DNA of 64,000 bases. Source: Crocinitomix sp. (lineage in GTDB: Bacteria; Bacteroidota; Bacteroidia; Flavobacteriales_D; Crocinitomicaceae). Where the stretch lies: NCBI GenBank assembly GCA_013138735.1, contig WTCE01000023.1:1-64000 (forward strand), in the 5' to 3' direction. Numbering within the stretch: position 1 is the stretch's first letter; each line of letters starts with the position of its first letter. Shown here in pieces: positions 45,516-52,576 of this stretch. Both the position numbers and the translations under genes were made by a program. The notes beneath the pieces are model-generated. The model was not told the DNA's origin. It saw only the letters and a program-made list of their open reading frames with translations, and ran no database searches.

Positions 45516-46634
45516 ATGAGTAATTTTGTTGTTTCAGCCCGTAAGTATAGACCGCAGACTTTTGATACTGTTGTAGGACAATCGTCCATTACAACAACGT
45601 TAAAAAATGCGATTAAAAATGACCATTTGGCGCAAGCCTTTTTGTTTTTTGGATCAAGAGGAGTTGGAAAAACAACAACTGCCCGAATTTTGGCAAAAAC
45701 CATTAACTGTTTCAACTTAAGTCCAGAAATTGAACCGTGCAATGCTTGTGAGTCTTGCACCTCTTTTAACGAAGGGCATTCGTTCAACATCTTAGAGCTG
45801 GATGCTGCATCAAACAACTCGGTTGATGATATTCGAAATTTGATTGACCAGGTTAGAATTGCACCACAGGTTGGAAATCATAAAATCTTCATCATTGATG
45901 AGGTTCATATGTTATCACAATCTGCATTTAATGCCTTTTTAAAAACCTTAGAAGAACCACCGAAACATGCGGTGTTTATTTTAGCAACTACTGAAAAACA
46001 TAAAATATTACCTACAATTTTATCCCGTTGTCAAATTTTCGATTTCCACCGGATTCAAATTGAGGATATCGTAAGCCACTTGGCATCCATTGCTGGAAAG
46101 GAAAACATAAAAGCGGATGATAAAGCATTACACGTTATTGCTCAAAAGGCAGATGGCGCTTTAAGAGATGCCCTTTCAATCTTTGATCAAATTGTATCGT
46201 TTAGCAATAACAACGTAACATACGAGGCGGTTTTAGAGAATTTAAATGTACTCGACTACGATTATTATTTTAAAATAATTGAAGCTGCCAAAGGAGGGAA
46301 TATCGCTGAGAACCTCTTAATTTATAATGATATTTTAGCCAAAGGTTTTGATGGAAGTCAATTTATATTGGGACTTTCTGAACATCTGAGAAATCTATTG
46401 GTTTGCAAGGATCCGGCAACTGTTACTTTAATGGAAGTGCCGAATGAAATTAAGGAGAAATATTTAGGACAAAGCGAATCAACTTCGCAAAATTTTATAT
46501 TGTTGGCCTTGGATTTATTACGCGATACAGATTTACATTTTAAAGCCAGTAAAAACAAACGCCTTAGTGTAGAGATCGCTTTGATGAAATTAAGTTCGAT
46601 TGAAGCAACATTAAAAAGTAAACAGGTATCTTAA
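45516..46634 (+). CDS. dnaX: DNA polymerase III gamma/tau subunit, ATPase part
   Basis: A 372-residue clamp-loader ATPase: N-terminal ARKYRPQTFDTVVGQ, Walker A GSRGVGKTT (46-54), a zinc-binding module with four Cys (CFNLSPEIEPCNACESC), Walker B IFIIDEVHML, the SRC motif in LSRCQIFDFH, and the collar-domain region after about 250. The frame ends with TAA at 46632-46634, whereas tau proteins of this phylum are usually longer. The C-terminal tau-like domain follows in another frame at 46655-47266. The short product resembles E. coli gamma. The split may be real, a frameshift mutation or a sequencing error. Confidence 0.93.
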   Translation: MSNFVVSARKYRPQTFDTVVGQSSITTTLKNAIKNDHLAQAFLFFGSRGVGKTTTARILAKTINCFNLSPEIEPCNACESCTSFNEGHSFNILELDAASNNSVDDIRNLIDQVRIAPQVGNHKIFIIDEVHMLSQSAFNAFLKTLEEPPKHAVFILATTEKHKILPTILSRCQIFDFHRIQIEDIVSHLASIAGKENIKADDKALHVIAQKADGALRDALSIFDQIVSFSNNNVTYEAVLENLNVLDYDYYFKIIEAAKGGNIAENLLIYNDILAKGFDGSQFILGLSEHLRNLLVCKDPATVTLMEVPNEIKEKYLGQSESTSQNFILLALDLLRDTDLHFKASKNKRLSVEIALMKLSSIEATLKSKQVS

Positions 46635-46654
46635 GTTATACTGACATAGTAATA

Positions 46655-47266
46655 TTGCCCTTTGAAGGTCAAGGTGACGGAGCTGTTAAAAAAGCGACGC
46701 AAGTGCCTAATCAATCTACAAATACTAATAAAACGGCTACAGTCAATAGTGGTCCTAAAATAGGTGGCGCTCCTGAGAGAAAGCAAGTGAGCCAACCTAC
46801 GGGTAAACTCAGTACCAATAATATTGGAATTAAAGAAACCTTAAATCCTACTATTCGCGACGGCGCAAAAAAGAAAGAATTAATTTCAAGCGATCAGGCA
46901 GAAGACTTTACCTTTGATCAGTTGAAACATGTTTGGAAAGAATATAGTTTAGCCATTCGTCGTGAAAAGCGTGAAAGTATGTATTCCACACTGATGAATT
47001 CTAATATGACCATGTCATCTGATTATCAAATTCACTTGGAAATTTCGAATGAGCTACAAGGGAAAAATTTAGAAATAGAAAAGGTTGAACTTTTGGGATT
47101 CGTGCGTTCTAAATTAAAAAACTATTCAATTGGTTTAAAGTACAGCGTAATTGCAACTGAAAAAATGGAAATTTTGGATAGTAAAGGAATTTTTGACAAA
47201 CTCGCAGAAGAAAATTCTTCCTTAAATAAATTTCGAAAGCTCTTCAATTTAGACATTGAGTTTTAA
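46655..47266 (+). CDS. dnaX C-terminal (tau) domain in a shifted frame
   Basis: A 203-residue frame from TTG 46655, open upstream to 46622. The first part is a Thr/Asn/Pro/Lys-rich linker, and the last 120 residues (FTFDQLKHVWKEYSLAIRREKRES ... NKFRKLFNLDIEF) resemble the polymerase-binding tau C-domain of this phylum. It is shifted by -1 (equivalently +2) relative to the dnaX frame that ends at 46634. Expression would need re-initiation at TTG, 20 bases after the dnaX stop, or a frameshift within 46622-46634. It has no ATG start near its beginning. Confidence 0.6.
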   Translation: MPFEGQGDGAVKKATQVPNQSTNTNKTATVNSGPKIGGAPERKQVSQPTGKLSTNNIGIKETLNPTIRDGAKKKELISSDQAEDFTFDQLKHVWKEYSLAIRREKRESMYSTLMNSNMTMSSDYQIHLEISNELQGKNLEIEKVELLGFVRSKLKNYSIGLKYSVIATEKMEILDSKGIFDKLAEENSSLNKFRKLFNLDIEF

Positions 47267-47507: not shown

Positions 47508-49058
47508 ATGAAAAAGTATTACTACTTATTTACCTTACTTTTTGCGTCTGCGAGTCTTTTCGCACAGGAATTTGCCACCCTTTACCAACCACATGATCCA
47601 ACAGAATCGATTGTAGTGCGTGATGTTGCGGTGATCTCTGACAATAGTATATTAGCAGGATTCGATCTTGCGGGAGCAGATAATATTCCAAGTGCAGGTT
47701 TAATGAAATTGGATAGTGACGGAAATGTTACTTGGGCTAACACACTTGATATTGCTGATTCAGATGCAGGCTGTACTTTTGAAGTCTTAGAAAAAGCAGA
47801 TGGCAACTACTATTTATGGGGATTAAGCAAGGAATCTGTCACTGCCAACATGCGTGCCATTCTTACGGAAATGACACCCGACGGCGTTATTCTATGGTCA
47901 AAAGAATACGACTTTGGCTGGAATGTAGACTACGCTTATACTGTCAATAAATTATATCTTTTGCCTTCAGGTGAAATGCAAATGATGATTGCAGTTTTTG
48001 GTCGCGTTATAGTGATGCAAACAGACGCCGAAGGTAACATCATCTGGGGAAAACAATCCTCAATTGGACCACCAGATGGCGGTGGTAAAAACCCAGGATT
48101 CGAATGGCTTTCTATTCCAGATGACGGAGGAATGTGCGCGAGCAAAGCAACGAATGACCTTTCTATTTTAAGATACAATGCTGATGGATACTTAATGTGG
48201 ACAAGACGCTACGAAATGGGTTACACACATGGTAAAACTATAAAAAGATCTCCAAACGGAAATATATTAATTGGTGGATTTCGCGGGTTTACTCCTATGG
48301 TAATGGAAATTAACGAAGCTGATGGAACCGTGAACTGGGTAAAATGGTTTGAAGGAAGTTTAAATATGGAATATGGAAGTATGGCCATGATTAATATTAT
48401 TGGGGATGAAATTATTTTCGATTATTCAAATAACGTAAAAGAACATATTATTTTACGCTTGGATATTAATGGCGAAGTACTTGAAACGTATAAGACTACA
48501 GCACCTGTTTTTGATTATAACAAAATTGAATTTACTGAGGATTATTCAGGTTATTTTTACGGAAGTTTTATGCAAGAAGATGAGCAAAAAGGAATGATCA
48601 ACAAAACCGACAACATTTTAGAAGGCTCTTGTATTCTTGAATTATATGAGCCATGCTACGTTGCAAGGCCTTATGATGAGACTTTTTCGGACACTCCTTT
48701 TGCGCCAACCCAAACAGATTTCACAAGTCAAGAAGACATTGCTGTAAGTATGATTTCAGAAACAATTACAACGAGTGATGCTTGTAGTGGATCTGATTTG
48801 GGAATTGAAACGGAGCAATTAGAATTGATTAGCATCTACCCTAACCCGTCTGCTAACATGTTTACCTTAAATGTTACAGCCGATTTAGTTCAATCCAACT
48901 ACGTGATTACTGATCTTGCAGGCAAAGTGGTAGCCAAACAACTAATTAATAGTGAAAATGAATTAGTTGATGTTTCGCACTTAAACAATGGACATTATCT
49001 TTTAACCGTATTCGGTGAAGAGATGACTATTACAGAAAAAATTACCGTTCATAAATAA
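47508..49058 (+). CDS. T9SS type A cargo protein, tandem paralogue 1
   Basis: A 516-residue secreted protein with a signal peptide at 1-19 (SLFAQ). The body consists of repeats with the pattern D-G-x-(I/V)-x-W-(S/G/T)-K, for example SDGNVTWAN, PDGVILWSK and EGNIIWGK, which suggest a beta-propeller. It also contains the unusual conserved stretch GGGKNPGFEWLSIPDDGGMCASKA. The C-terminal ~75 residues (ISIYPNPSANMFTLNV ... HYLLTVFGEEMTITEKITVHK) are a type A T9SS sorting domain. It is the first of three consecutive homologues. A strong terminator follows at 49079. Confidence 0.9.
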   Translation: MKKYYYLFTLLFASASLFAQEFATLYQPHDPTESIVVRDVAVISDNSILAGFDLAGADNIPSAGLMKLDSDGNVTWANTLDIADSDAGCTFEVLEKADGNYYLWGLSKESVTANMRAILTEMTPDGVILWSKEYDFGWNVDYAYTVNKLYLLPSGEMQMMIAVFGRVIVMQTDAEGNIIWGKQSSIGPPDGGGKNPGFEWLSIPDDGGMCASKATNDLSILRYNADGYLMWTRRYEMGYTHGKTIKRSPNGNILIGGFRGFTPMVMEINEADGTVNWVKWFEGSLNMEYGSMAMINIIGDEIIFDYSNNVKEHIILRLDINGEVLETYKTTAPVFDYNKIEFTEDYSGYFYGSFMQEDEQKGMINKTDNILEGSCILELYEPCYVARPYDETFSDTPFAPTQTDFTSQEDIAVSMISETITTSDACSGSDLGIETEQLELISIYPNPSANMFTLNVTADLVQSNYVITDLAGKVVAKQLINSENELVDVSHLNNGHYLLTVFGEEMTITEKITVHK

Positions 49059-49078
49059 CCCAATACATAAAATGCTTT

Positions 49079-49113
49079 AAAAGCCTGATTTTTCTGTTAG
49101 GAATCAGGCTTTT
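49079..49113 (+). terminator. Intrinsic terminator between T9SS paralogues 1 and 2
   Basis: Perfect 12-bp stem AAAAGCCTGATT/AATCAGGCTTTT with an 11-base loop and T-rich end, 20 bases past the first paralogue. The A-rich 5' side allows function on either strand. Confidence 0.9.
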
Positions 49114-49209
49114 AATGATTTTATTGTTAAATAAGAACAAATCACTCTTAAACAAACACTTATCACCAAATAATTATTAAATTTAAGACAACCGTTGCAG
49201 TTTTGATAA

Positions 49210-49224
49210 CGTATTAAAATTGAT
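49210..49224 (+). promoter_or_regulatory. Conserved 15-bp element upstream of paralogue 2
   Basis: CGTATTAAAATTGAT lies 25 bases before the ATG at 49250. The identical 15-mer precedes paralogue 3 at 50889-50903, at nearly the same distance. It may be a promoter or binding site, or a remnant of the duplication. Confidence 0.55.
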
Positions 49225-49249
49225 CGTTCACTAAAAAAAACAATTACCT

Positions 49250-50791
49250 ATGAAAAAACTCTTATACACCATTGCATTTATATGCTCTTCAGCATCTTTA
49301 TTTGCACAAGATTTTGCCCTCACCTATGAGCCTACCTCTGATGAGGGATTTGTAACAATTCGAGATTTGGCTACCGTTTCAGATGGTAATTTAATTGTTG
49401 GATATGATTATGTTAATGCGGGTGTTCCAGTTTCAGGAATAATGAAAACAGCCGCTGACGGTTCTATCCTTTGGTCAAAAACATTACTTGTACCAGAATC
49501 TGTTGCAGGATGTTCATTTGAAGTGCTTGAAAACGCAGAGGGAAATTTTTACCTTTGGGGATTAAGTAAAGCTGCCACTTCTAACAAAAGCGCAATTCTT
49601 TCAGAAATTTCTGCAGATGGCGAAATGTTATGGTCAAAGAATTATGATTTTGGAACACACCCAAGTGCAGCCTACTCTATTAACTCTTTAGATATATTAC
49701 CATCAGGAAACCTACAAATGATGATTGCGGTTTATGAAAACGTTATTGTTATACAAACAAACGCGAACGGCGAAATTATTTGGGGTAAAGTTTCAGCAAT
49801 GGGACCACCGGATGATGAAGGCGGAAAAAACCCAGGATTTGAATGGTTAGCCATTCCAGACGACGGTGGAATGTGTGCTAGTAAAGCTGGAAATGATTTT
49901 TCTTTATTAAGATATAGTGATGAAGGTGAATTACTATGGAACAGAGCATACAAATTAGGTGGTTATACACATTGTAAAACACTTGTTACTGCACCAAACG
50001 GAAATGTTTTAATTGCTGGTTATATTGATTATGTACCACATATCATGGAAGTTTCTGCAGAGGATGGAGAAATGATTTGGATTAAAACTTTTGAAGGTTT
50101 ATCAATGCTATTTACTGGAAAATCTCACTTGACAGTTGATGGTGATAACATTTACTTAGATTTTACAACTACGACTAATCAACAGTACGTTTTAAGAATG
50201 AGCGAAACTGGTGAAGTTCTTGAAACTATGATGACTAAGAACAATGTTTTAGATTATAACAAAATTGAATTAATTGATCAGGACGAAGTTTATCTTTACG
50301 GTTCATCTTTAGAAGGTGATACTTATAAAGGAATGATTTTAAGAACAGACGATCTATTTGTAGAGTCTTGTATGGTTGGACCAGCAGAAGCTGTTACTAC
50401 TGTTGATTTCGTGACTTATACTGAGGTGGATTTCACTCCAACTGAGTGGGACTTTGCTGATGAAGCTGATATTGAAATTGGAATGGTTGATCTTCAATTG
50501 AGAGCTAAGTTTGCTTGTGAAGTTGTTTTATCAGACGGACCTGATGCTGCGATAAGCAATGTAGTGGTTTACCCTAACCCTACTGCTAACAATATTACAA
50601 TTCAAGTAACTGAAGATTTAGTAAATGCATTATTTATTATGACTGACCTTTCAGGAAAGCAAGTAATGAATAGTACAATTACAAGTTTACAATCTGAAAT
50701 TGATTTATCTGGATTGAATAATGGACAGTATATCCTTTCAATTCAAACTGAAAACGGTTTAAAAACACAAAAAATTACGGTTCTTAAATAG
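49250..50791 (+). CDS. T9SS type A cargo protein, tandem paralogue 2
   Basis: A 513-residue homologue of the preceding gene: signal peptide (SLFAQ), the same D-G-x-(I/V)-x-W-(S/G)-K repeats (ADGSILWSK, DGEMLWSK, NGEIIWGK), the GGKNPGFEWLAIPDDGGMC segment, and a sorting domain VVVYPNPTANNITIQV ... LKTQKITVLK. It is closest to paralogue 1 by eye. It has its own terminator. Confidence 0.9.
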   Translation: MKKLLYTIAFICSSASLFAQDFALTYEPTSDEGFVTIRDLATVSDGNLIVGYDYVNAGVPVSGIMKTAADGSILWSKTLLVPESVAGCSFEVLENAEGNFYLWGLSKAATSNKSAILSEISADGEMLWSKNYDFGTHPSAAYSINSLDILPSGNLQMMIAVYENVIVIQTNANGEIIWGKVSAMGPPDDEGGKNPGFEWLAIPDDGGMCASKAGNDFSLLRYSDEGELLWNRAYKLGGYTHCKTLVTAPNGNVLIAGYIDYVPHIMEVSAEDGEMIWIKTFEGLSMLFTGKSHLTVDGDNIYLDFTTTTNQQYVLRMSETGEVLETMMTKNNVLDYNKIELIDQDEVYLYGSSLEGDTYKGMILRTDDLFVESCMVGPAEAVTTVDFVTYTEVDFTPTEWDFADEADIEIGMVDLQLRAKFACEVVLSDGPDAAISNVVVYPNPTANNITIQVTEDLVNALFIMTDLSGKQVMNSTITSLQSEIDLSGLNNGQYILSIQTENGLKTQKITVLK

Positions 50792-50815
50792 TCGTAGTTT
50801 TAAATAATTGGAATC

Positions 50816-50846
50816 CCGTCAGCCTAAAGCTGACGGGATTTTTTCG
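50816..50846 (+). terminator. Intrinsic terminator (CCGTCAGCC stem) after paralogue 2
   Basis: CCCGTCAGC-CTAAA-GCTGACGGG followed by ATTTTTT, 25 bases after the stop. The stem is nearly the same as the rplI terminator at 39787-39815. Confidence 0.9.
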
Positions 50847-50888
50847 TTATAATATTAGTAGTTCGAGGAACCGCTATAGATTTGGTCA

Positions 50889-50903
50889 CGTATTAAAATT
50901 GAT
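50889..50903 (+). promoter_or_regulatory. Conserved 15-bp element upstream of paralogue 3
   Basis: Identical to the 15-mer CGTATTAAAATTGAT at 49210-49224 and 26 bases before the ATG at 50930. Confidence 0.55.
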
Positions 50904-50929
50904 AACCTATTTCTTTTAAGTCAAACCCT

Positions 50930-52576
50930 ATGAAAAAAATCTTATACAGTATCGTATTCATTTGCGCCTCGTCCTCCTTATTTGCGCAAGATTTCATTTA
51001 CAACTATCTTTCACTAACAACGGGCAGCACCAGCATCTTTATACGTGATGTTATTAAAACAAATGATAACCACCTTGTGGCGGCATTTGATTTGGAAGGA
51101 TTTACTGATTTAGGAGGACCAATGGGCGGCATAATGAAATTGGAAGCAGATGGCAAACCCATTTGGACCAAACTATTTAATGTTCCTGGGTCAGCAGCCA
51201 ATTGTGCCTTTGAAGTGGTTGAAAATAATGCTGGCAACTACGTAATGTGGGGTTTGAATAAAAACCTTGCAGATGGACGCATGGAAGCAATTTTATTTGA
51301 GGTCACACCAAATGCCGAAGTACTTTGGTCTAAAAAATATGACTTTGATGATGAGGAAGGTTATTATACAATTAATCGTATGATGATATTACCCTCGGGG
51401 GAATTAGAAATGATGATTTCAATTTATGAGAAGTTGATTATTCTGCGCACGACGGCCGAAGGTGAAATTATTTGGGGTAAATCTTCATTCCTAGCTGGCC
51501 CTGGTGGGTCGCCTGGTAAAAACCCTGGTTTTGATTTAGTTTCGTTACCTGGTGATGGTGGAATTTGTGCGAATAAATTCGGAAGTGATTTCGCCTTAAT
51601 TCGTTATGGCGAAGATGGAGAAACCAATTGGACAAAAAGATACAGTATTGGTTTATATATGCATGCAAAATCGATCCTGCAAATGCCGAGCGGTAACTTT
51701 GCGGTAGGCGGTTTCGTAATCGACTCAGTAACGACAAAAAGTAGCGTATTAATAATGTCCGTTTCAGATGTAGACGGTTCAATTTTATGGATAAAAACTT
51801 TAAATGAACATGAAATTGGCTACAATTCAAATTTACGCTTAAGCCATTTAGATGGTGATTGTGTAGCCACTTTTAGCCCTGGTAGCGGCTCATTAAACTA
51901 TCAACATTATTTACGATTTGATGTTGATGGGAATATAGTCTCATCAGCTAAATCTAGGACTCATTGTGCAGACATTAATCGACTTGAGGTGATTGATACG
52001 GACGAAGTTTATGCTTACGGATCTGGTAGAGTAGACACTGACCCAACAAATAGAAAGATAGGAATGATCCAACGTACGTCAGACTTATTTGCTGAAAATT
52101 GCAGGAATGAACTGATCACCATAACAACTACCAATTATACAGAATATGAAGAACTAGAATCAGAATCTGTTCTAACAGACTTTACAGAAATGGAAGTAGC
52201 TTCAATAAGCTTGATTGATTTAGAGGTAAGGTTAATGGATTACTGTACAGAACAATTTTTTGAAATTGGTGATGATAACCCTTTTGAAGAAGTCCAACAT
52301 GAAGATCCGGTAGATGCTTCAGGAATCGAAGAAATTGAAAATGGGATTCTAATTTACCCTAACCCTTCCTCAAACCTAGTTAATATTAAAGTAAATGCTG
52401 ATCTAATAAACGCATCTTACAAACTGAACTCTTTAGCCGGTCAAACGGTCTTAAGTGGCTTCATTAGCGGCGAGCAATTGCGTATTGATGTATCTAATTT
52501 AGAAAATGGACAATATATTTTATCGATACGAAATAAAACTGAAATTAAAACAAAAAAAATCACAGTGCTTAAATAG
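50930..52576 (+). CDS. T9SS type A cargo protein, tandem paralogue 3
   Basis: A 548-residue homologue of the two preceding genes with a signal peptide (SLFAQ), repeats such as ADGKPIWTK, NAEVLWSK, EGEIIWGK and DGSILWIK, a PGKNPGFDLVSLPGDGGIC segment, and a sorting domain GILIYPNPSSNLVNIKV ... IKTKKITVLK. It is the longest and most diverged, with an extra acidic linker (about 440-475) before the sorting domain. No terminator was seen directly after it; the nearest is at 52893. Confidence 0.9.
   Translation: MKKILYSIVFICASSSLFAQDFIYNYLSLTTGSTSIFIRDVIKTNDNHLVAAFDLEGFTDLGGPMGGIMKLEADGKPIWTKLFNVPGSAANCAFEVVENNAGNYVMWGLNKNLADGRMEAILFEVTPNAEVLWSKKYDFDDEEGYYTINRMMILPSGELEMMISIYEKLIILRTTAEGEIIWGKSSFLAGPGGSPGKNPGFDLVSLPGDGGICANKFGSDFALIRYGEDGETNWTKRYSIGLYMHAKSILQMPSGNFAVGGFVIDSVTTKSSVLIMSVSDVDGSILWIKTLNEHEIGYNSNLRLSHLDGDCVATFSPGSGSLNYQHYLRFDVDGNIVSSAKSRTHCADINRLEVIDTDEVYAYGSGRVDTDPTNRKIGMIQRTSDLFAENCRNELITITTTNYTEYEELESESVLTDFTEMEVASISLIDLEVRLMDYCTEQFFEIGDDNPFEEVQHEDPVDASGIEEIENGILIYPNPSSNLVNIKVNADLINASYKLNSLAGQTVLSGFISGEQLRIDVSNLENGQYILSIRNKTEIKTKKITVLK

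Follow-up and report, generated by a model that had tools for sequence, protein, structure and literature searches.

How does a bacterium obtain the tau part of its DNA polymerase clamp loader when dnaX is divided between two reading frames? The gene is a textbook case of recoding, and the question is raised by a locus of Crocinitomix sp. lying in the 64,000 nucleotides analysed here (the window), which open contig 22 of a draft assembly of 6.84 Mb in 188 contigs. A preliminary description of the window had placed the tau part in the -1 frame relative to the ATPase part, and its coordinates proved correct, as did the TAA that closes the -1 frame at 46619-46621. The stretch left open for a shift between the frames, 46622-46634, is 13 bases long rather than the 12 first counted. 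The features discussed below are the following.

45516..46634, + strand: ORF1, DnaX gamma-like clamp-loader ATPase (AAA+, lid and domain III), 372 aa, identified by profile matches and by relatives 95% identical
46632..46634, + strand: TAA, the gamma stop codon, read from the sequence
46619..46621, + strand: TAA shutting the tau (-1) frame and ending ten bases 5' of the gamma stop, found at the same site in G001, G002, G003, G005 and G008
46622..47266, + strand: tau (-1) reading frame with the tau-like C-terminal part, stop included, identified by a profile match and by relatives
46628..46630, + strand: candidate AUC restart codon in the context ATC T TAA, a putative initiation site
46628..47266, + strand: proposed separate tau-C protein, a putative product of 212 aa
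46652..46672, + strand: linker motif ILPFEGQ, conserved among the relatives compared, just past the junction and including TTG 46655
46910..47245, + strand: predicted folded region resembling tau domain V (model residues 95-206), its fold neighbours being weak

The identity of the first half is clear from its scores of 438.8 bits against TIGR02397 (cut-off 250) and 463.6 bits against PRK05563 (cut-off 400); alone, it reaches 678 bits against the full-length model PRK14971 (cut-off 685). Its closest relatives, at 95% identity, are in uncultured Crocinitomix genomes. For the second frame, the match to PRK14971, a gamma/tau model, covers model positions 425-613 with an E-value of 9e-22 and 77.6 bits, the cut-off of 685 being meant for the whole protein and not for this frame alone; the family membership of tau-C is based on this match. 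The Pfam search returned no match for tau-C.

The predicted structure of tau-C (mean pLDDT 67, pTM 0.41) comprises a low-confidence stretch at residues 1-94, probably a disordered linker, and a folded region from about 95 to 206. Domain V of tau has a KH-like fold. With the tau-C model, Foldseek gave no match at E <=0.001, and its top row was a weak one (E 0.07, TM 0.22) to 5fku_E of the E. coli Pol III complex, a chain which we take to be tau. The best rows of VIA-align were 4tps_B, from a DnaA domain I complex (Z 9.2), 8csp_a, from mitochondrial ribosome assembly (Z 9.0), 2e0g, which is the N-terminal domain of DnaA (Z 8.4), and 8a3v_C, from a DnaB-DciA complex (Z 8.0). At Z levels that the tool rates as common, DnaA domain I and DciA appear in its rows together with many chains from ribosomes or ribosome assembly, and the resemblance is weak because KH-like folds are common. 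A search of the tau-C profile against solved structures returned nothing beyond two sequences of chitinases (E about 0.009).

The draft state of the assembly invites the simplest explanation, namely that the linker carries a sequencing error or has recently acquired a frameshift, which the preliminary description had considered. Comparison with the family Crocinitomicaceae (Flavobacteriales) leaves this explanation with a negligible probability. The family search matched 226 of 240 genomes, and 99 junctions were compared, 42 from ATPase loci among the matches listed in this search and in the 40-genome survey below and 57 hand-picked to cover genera, hence a non-random sample. Two ORFs with tau in the -1 frame at the same place occur in 97 of the 99, and in 9/9 genomes examined from the genus, so that the alignment of related dnaX genes proposed earlier as a check finds the split conserved. 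A single intact gene, envisaged for all relatives as the finding that would speak against the split, is present in two junctions only: in G107 (L187/L222) and G137 (L200/L223) dnaX is fused, with 595 and 587 codons open, apparently by reversion from the two-ORF state. In these counts, G092 and G133, whose A10 run lies slightly further upstream, were scored with the A-run genomes described below, G011 was retained despite a TAA within its ATPase, and G019, whose gene is interrupted by contig ends, was excluded. A survey of 40 genomes found the ATPase and the tau part in all of them; the ATPase had an open frame of 366-448 codons in 33/40, and a single long frame (582-701 codons) was found in six, all from other families, G019 being the one interrupted gene.

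Purifying selection acts on both halves. Against seven relatives, dN is 0.03-0.13 for ORF1 and 0.10-0.49 for the tau part, far below a dS that is at least 1.2 or saturated. At the start of the tau frame, the first nine codons show 0-4.5 synonymous vs 1-6.5 non-synonymous changes, too few codons to be read alone; when the count is extended to 16 tau codons, each of the three closest relatives has one non-synonymous change, against 2, 8 and 6 synonymous ones. The split is thus genuine and conserved, and was in place before synonymous sites became saturated in the genus. A pseudogene is ruled out by the conservation and the dN/dS values.

Most of the family belongs to a known type. Two-ORF dnaX genes with a -1 transition, mostly at poly-A, were published in 2013 by Antonov et al. 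(PMC3711429), the accessible text of which reports poly-A stretches in 12/17 genes. The resemblance is close: the linker is where the gamma ORF stops, and the C-terminal part of tau follows in the -1 frame. Among our 97 two-ORF junctions, 81 carry a run of A10-A12 5' of the gamma stop, which is the state described for that type, and 16 do not. Outside the family, in f10, G330 (L218) has an A-run with tau in the +1 frame, and in G331 and G033 tau lies in -1. Because the direction is mixed, a criterion taken from the part of PMC3711429 available to us suggests that the ancestral signal is transcriptional slippage rather than ribosomal frameshifting. The earlier proposal that recoding yields both gamma and tau is likely for most of the family (A10-A12, 81/99), but the signal has been lost in the window's clade. 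Inspection by eye of the A-run genomes (L161-L217) also showed a GAG usually two codons 5' of the GAA of the run, often as CAGGAG, which may be a Shine-Dalgarno-like stimulator or a constraint of the protein.

The A-run is missing from 15 genomes forming the window's clade and from G089. In a protein tree, G089, G127 and the 15 form one group (100/99 support) within which G127 retains the run; branching among the 15 is poorly resolved. On this tree the three states call for no fewer than four changes, which fits two losses and two fusions. In the window, the overlap of the frames contains no A-run of five or more, hence no poly-A stretch (>=7), the longest A-runs elsewhere in the clade being A7 in G012 and G124. 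The preliminary description had found no slippery heptamer in the open gap of the window; this is borne out, the Z_ZZN tetramer is absent too, and no motif for a programmed -1 frameshift is left there. An A5 at 46613-46617 sits 5' of the closing TAA, and slipping on it was rejected since the -1 frame stops at 46619. The tau frame is shut by a TAA at -13 in six of the 16 genomes without the A-run (the window, G001, G002, G003, G005 and G008), and slipping 5' of that stop is therefore excluded in them. Neither Z_ZZN nor X_XXY_YYZ was found in the open overlap of the window, G002, G003, G005, G008 and G089. A slip motif is kept in the open overlap of 10/15 clade genomes: A_AAA_AAG in phase in G012, G016 and G124, and weaker motifs in the others (A_AAA in G004, G006, G087 and G125, A_AAC in G126, A_AAG in G001, T_TTG in G007). 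With these motifs retained, the ten may be in a mixed or transitional state.

The window's clade is a derived variant that fails the defining signal of the two-ORF type: it retains both halves and the -1 offset, and differs from the poly-A genes in the accessible text of PMC3711429 by the loss of the poly-A run and, in six genomes, by a stop forbidding upstream slipping. Our literature search found no paper naming both Crocinitomix and dnaX, nor the state of this clade in print.

What replaced the run is suggested by the bases at the gamma stop. An ATC stands in the tau frame, one base 5' of this stop, in 13/16 genomes without the A-run vs 0/81 with it (Fisher p 1e-13), these 13 genomes being one clade and the events hence not independent. 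Their gamma ORF ends in NNA TCN TAR. The gamma codon ending on the A of ATC differs (GTA in 7, GCA in 3, TTA in 3) and the preceding tau-frame codon is variable. Counted column by column, the 13 genomes agree fully on ATC and on the T and A that begin the stop, and columns -13 to -5 carry 0.12 to 1.23 bits, with relatively good conservation of the two bases 5' of ATC. Conservation is seen again in the A's of columns -18 to -15, at 1.2 to 2.0 bits, which are probably a remnant of the A-run. ATC makes up 10-30% of the Ile codons in these genes.

In the remaining three of the 16, a canonical start overlaps the gamma stop, as ATGA in G007, GTGA in G001 and TAATG in G089. No start lies at -4, -1 or +2 in any of the 81 A-run genomes (p 0.004), G133 having a TTG at +8; 21 of the 81 end in TGA, in every case as CTGA. 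The ATG of G089 aligns with the ATC codon in a by-eye count from the ILPF motif, and in G001 and G007 the start lies one codon before the ATC position and is followed by ATC and ATA, respectively. These true starts overlapping the gamma stop, with the ATG of G089 at the very same codon, are the strongest pointer to ATC as a start codon. Chance weakens the cases of G001 and G007, not that of G089, since three of the four bases N in NTGA yield a start. In addition, ATC overlaps a Ser codon of gamma, and selection could act on a C-terminal [V/A/L]-Ser.

We lean towards reading dnaX of this clade as a formerly recoded gene that has become two cistrons, with termination-reinitiation at AUC and a separate tau-C. 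Ribosomes would complete gamma at UAA 46632-46634, and some of those terminating would restart at AUC 46628-46630, the first base of which is four bases 5' of the stop, by termination-reinitiation on a near-cognate start codon. The product would be a separate tau-C, made of the linker and a polymerase-binding domain of the domain V type. Full-length tau would then be absent or rare, and clamp loader and polymerase would need to be joined non-covalently. Initiation at AUC would hold tau-C low and might be sensitive to IF3. From the sequence comparisons, we infer both the AUC initiation and the lack of full-length tau.

The strongest rival, though an unlikely one, holds that full-length tau is still made, by -1 recoding of a non-canonical kind on the gamma stop or immediately 5' of it, with ATCYTAAG as an unrecognised shift signal. 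It would account for the retention of the -1 offset of recoded relatives and for the strong conservation of ATC-Y-TA, and the heptamers or tetramers left in ten clade genomes agree with it. Such motifs are however absent from the window, G002, G003, G005 and G008, the tau frame is shut at -13 in six genomes, and start/stop overlaps stand in for the motif in three. By codon-anticodon rules, moreover, a tRNA sitting on UCU or GUA should find no pairing after a step of one base back. Two other candidates were rejected. A +1 shift of the prfB kind at UCU UAA meets the closure of the window's +1 frame ten bases on, and for tRNA hopping no matching codon pair holds across the relatives, whose sequences were read by eye.

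Reinitiation might instead take place at another codon 3' of the stop, either TTG 46655, as the preliminary description had put forward, or a near-cognate AUA or AUU in the first codons. This is improbable. A TTG does occur at +23 in the window, G124 and G125, and a GTG or TTG at +17 in G003, G004 and G005, but canonical starts occupy no conserved place: in 7/13 ATC genomes, ATG, GTG and TTG are absent from the tau frame until past the ILPF motif, the first being at +44 in G008 and at +89 or later in the six others. In the nine codons 5' of TTG 46655, six synonymous and three non-synonymous changes separate the window from its three closest relatives, a hint of translation too slight to amount to proof. 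Reinitiation as such remains favoured, and TTG 46655 itself is an ordinary Leu codon within ILPFEGQ, replaced by TTA in G003, G005 and G006.

Less probable still is a tau-C uncoupled from gamma, with a transcript of its own or with initiation that does not depend on gamma. In its favour is an AAGGAGG 4 nt 5' of ATC, after A_AAA_AAG, in G012 (L013), G016 (L011) and G124 (L144). Against it, the conserved contact of the restart codon with the gamma stop points to coupling, and Bacteroidia ribosomes do not recognise Shine-Dalgarno sequences according to the portion of PMC9976891 at hand, which makes no mention of dnaX.

The preferred reading, restart at AUC, has to be set against what is known of initiation. 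In Bacteroidota, an A is expected at -3 of the start codon. It is present at -3 of the candidate ATC (column -7) in 2/13 genomes. AUC starts appear disfavoured in vitro, since in the available data of PMC10158994 the pairs AUC/UAU and AUC/AAU, whose third base is mismatched, gave no product at standard IF3; AUU/CAU gave 31%. Near-cognate starts are nevertheless used in conserved genes: in the accessible text of PMC5472188, ATT is reported for infC of E. coli and ATC for that of Streptomyces, and infC and the GTC start of sigR are described as non-canonical starts under IF3 control. The proposed tau-C would resemble them as a conserved gene starting with a codon other than ATG, GTG or TTG; it would differ in being reached by a terminating ribosome, which that text does not describe for infC or sigR. 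In the genome of the window, infC (L224, C103:84041-84298) has no ATG, GTG or TTG between the upstream stop and the conserved IF3 region so that its start has to be one of the Ile codons ATA and ATT. Such a start would fit the autoregulation of IF3.

The proposal combines traits of other known systems. In E. coli, dnaX undergoes a -1 frameshift at A_AAA_AAG and in Thermus transcriptional slippage (PMC5009743, as far as its accessible text goes); there, as in the window, gamma and tau stem from one locus. Tau lies however in a single ORF in these two species, while the window has no known signal and would, on our reading, yield two separate proteins. Termination-reinitiation at overlapping stop and start codons was described by Huber et al. 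2019 (PMC6728339). As in the cases given in its available text, the restart codon touches the upstream stop, with ATGA in G007, GTGA in G001 and TAATG in G089, and with the candidate AUC one base before UAA in the window. Unlike them, the window and 12 other genomes have AUC and no canonical start.

Taken to its full extent, the argument would be that a free-living clade abolished full-length tau and swapped a recoding site of an essential replisome gene for AUC reinitiation, with a separate tether supplied through near-cognate initiation, perhaps under IF3; we put this forward tentatively, with rather more doubt than confidence. If tau-C is truly separate, the replisome works without a covalent tether between polymerase and clamp loader, which bears on why cells produce gamma and tau. 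If the AUC start is true, a conserved gene start would lie beyond the reach of gene finders restricted to ATG, GTG and TTG. The loss of a recoding site would moreover be legible in living relatives, from the A-run through its remnant with AAGGAGG and the AUC by the stop to the ATG and GTG overlaps, with fusion elsewhere in the family.

Two minor observations concern the surroundings of these features. The AAGGAGG of G012, G016 and G124 belongs to a phylum mostly without Shine-Dalgarno use. Just 3' of dnaX, at 47508-52576, lie three tandem paralogous proteins (516, 513 and 548 aa) that resemble one another in their signal-like starts and in their C-terminal tails.
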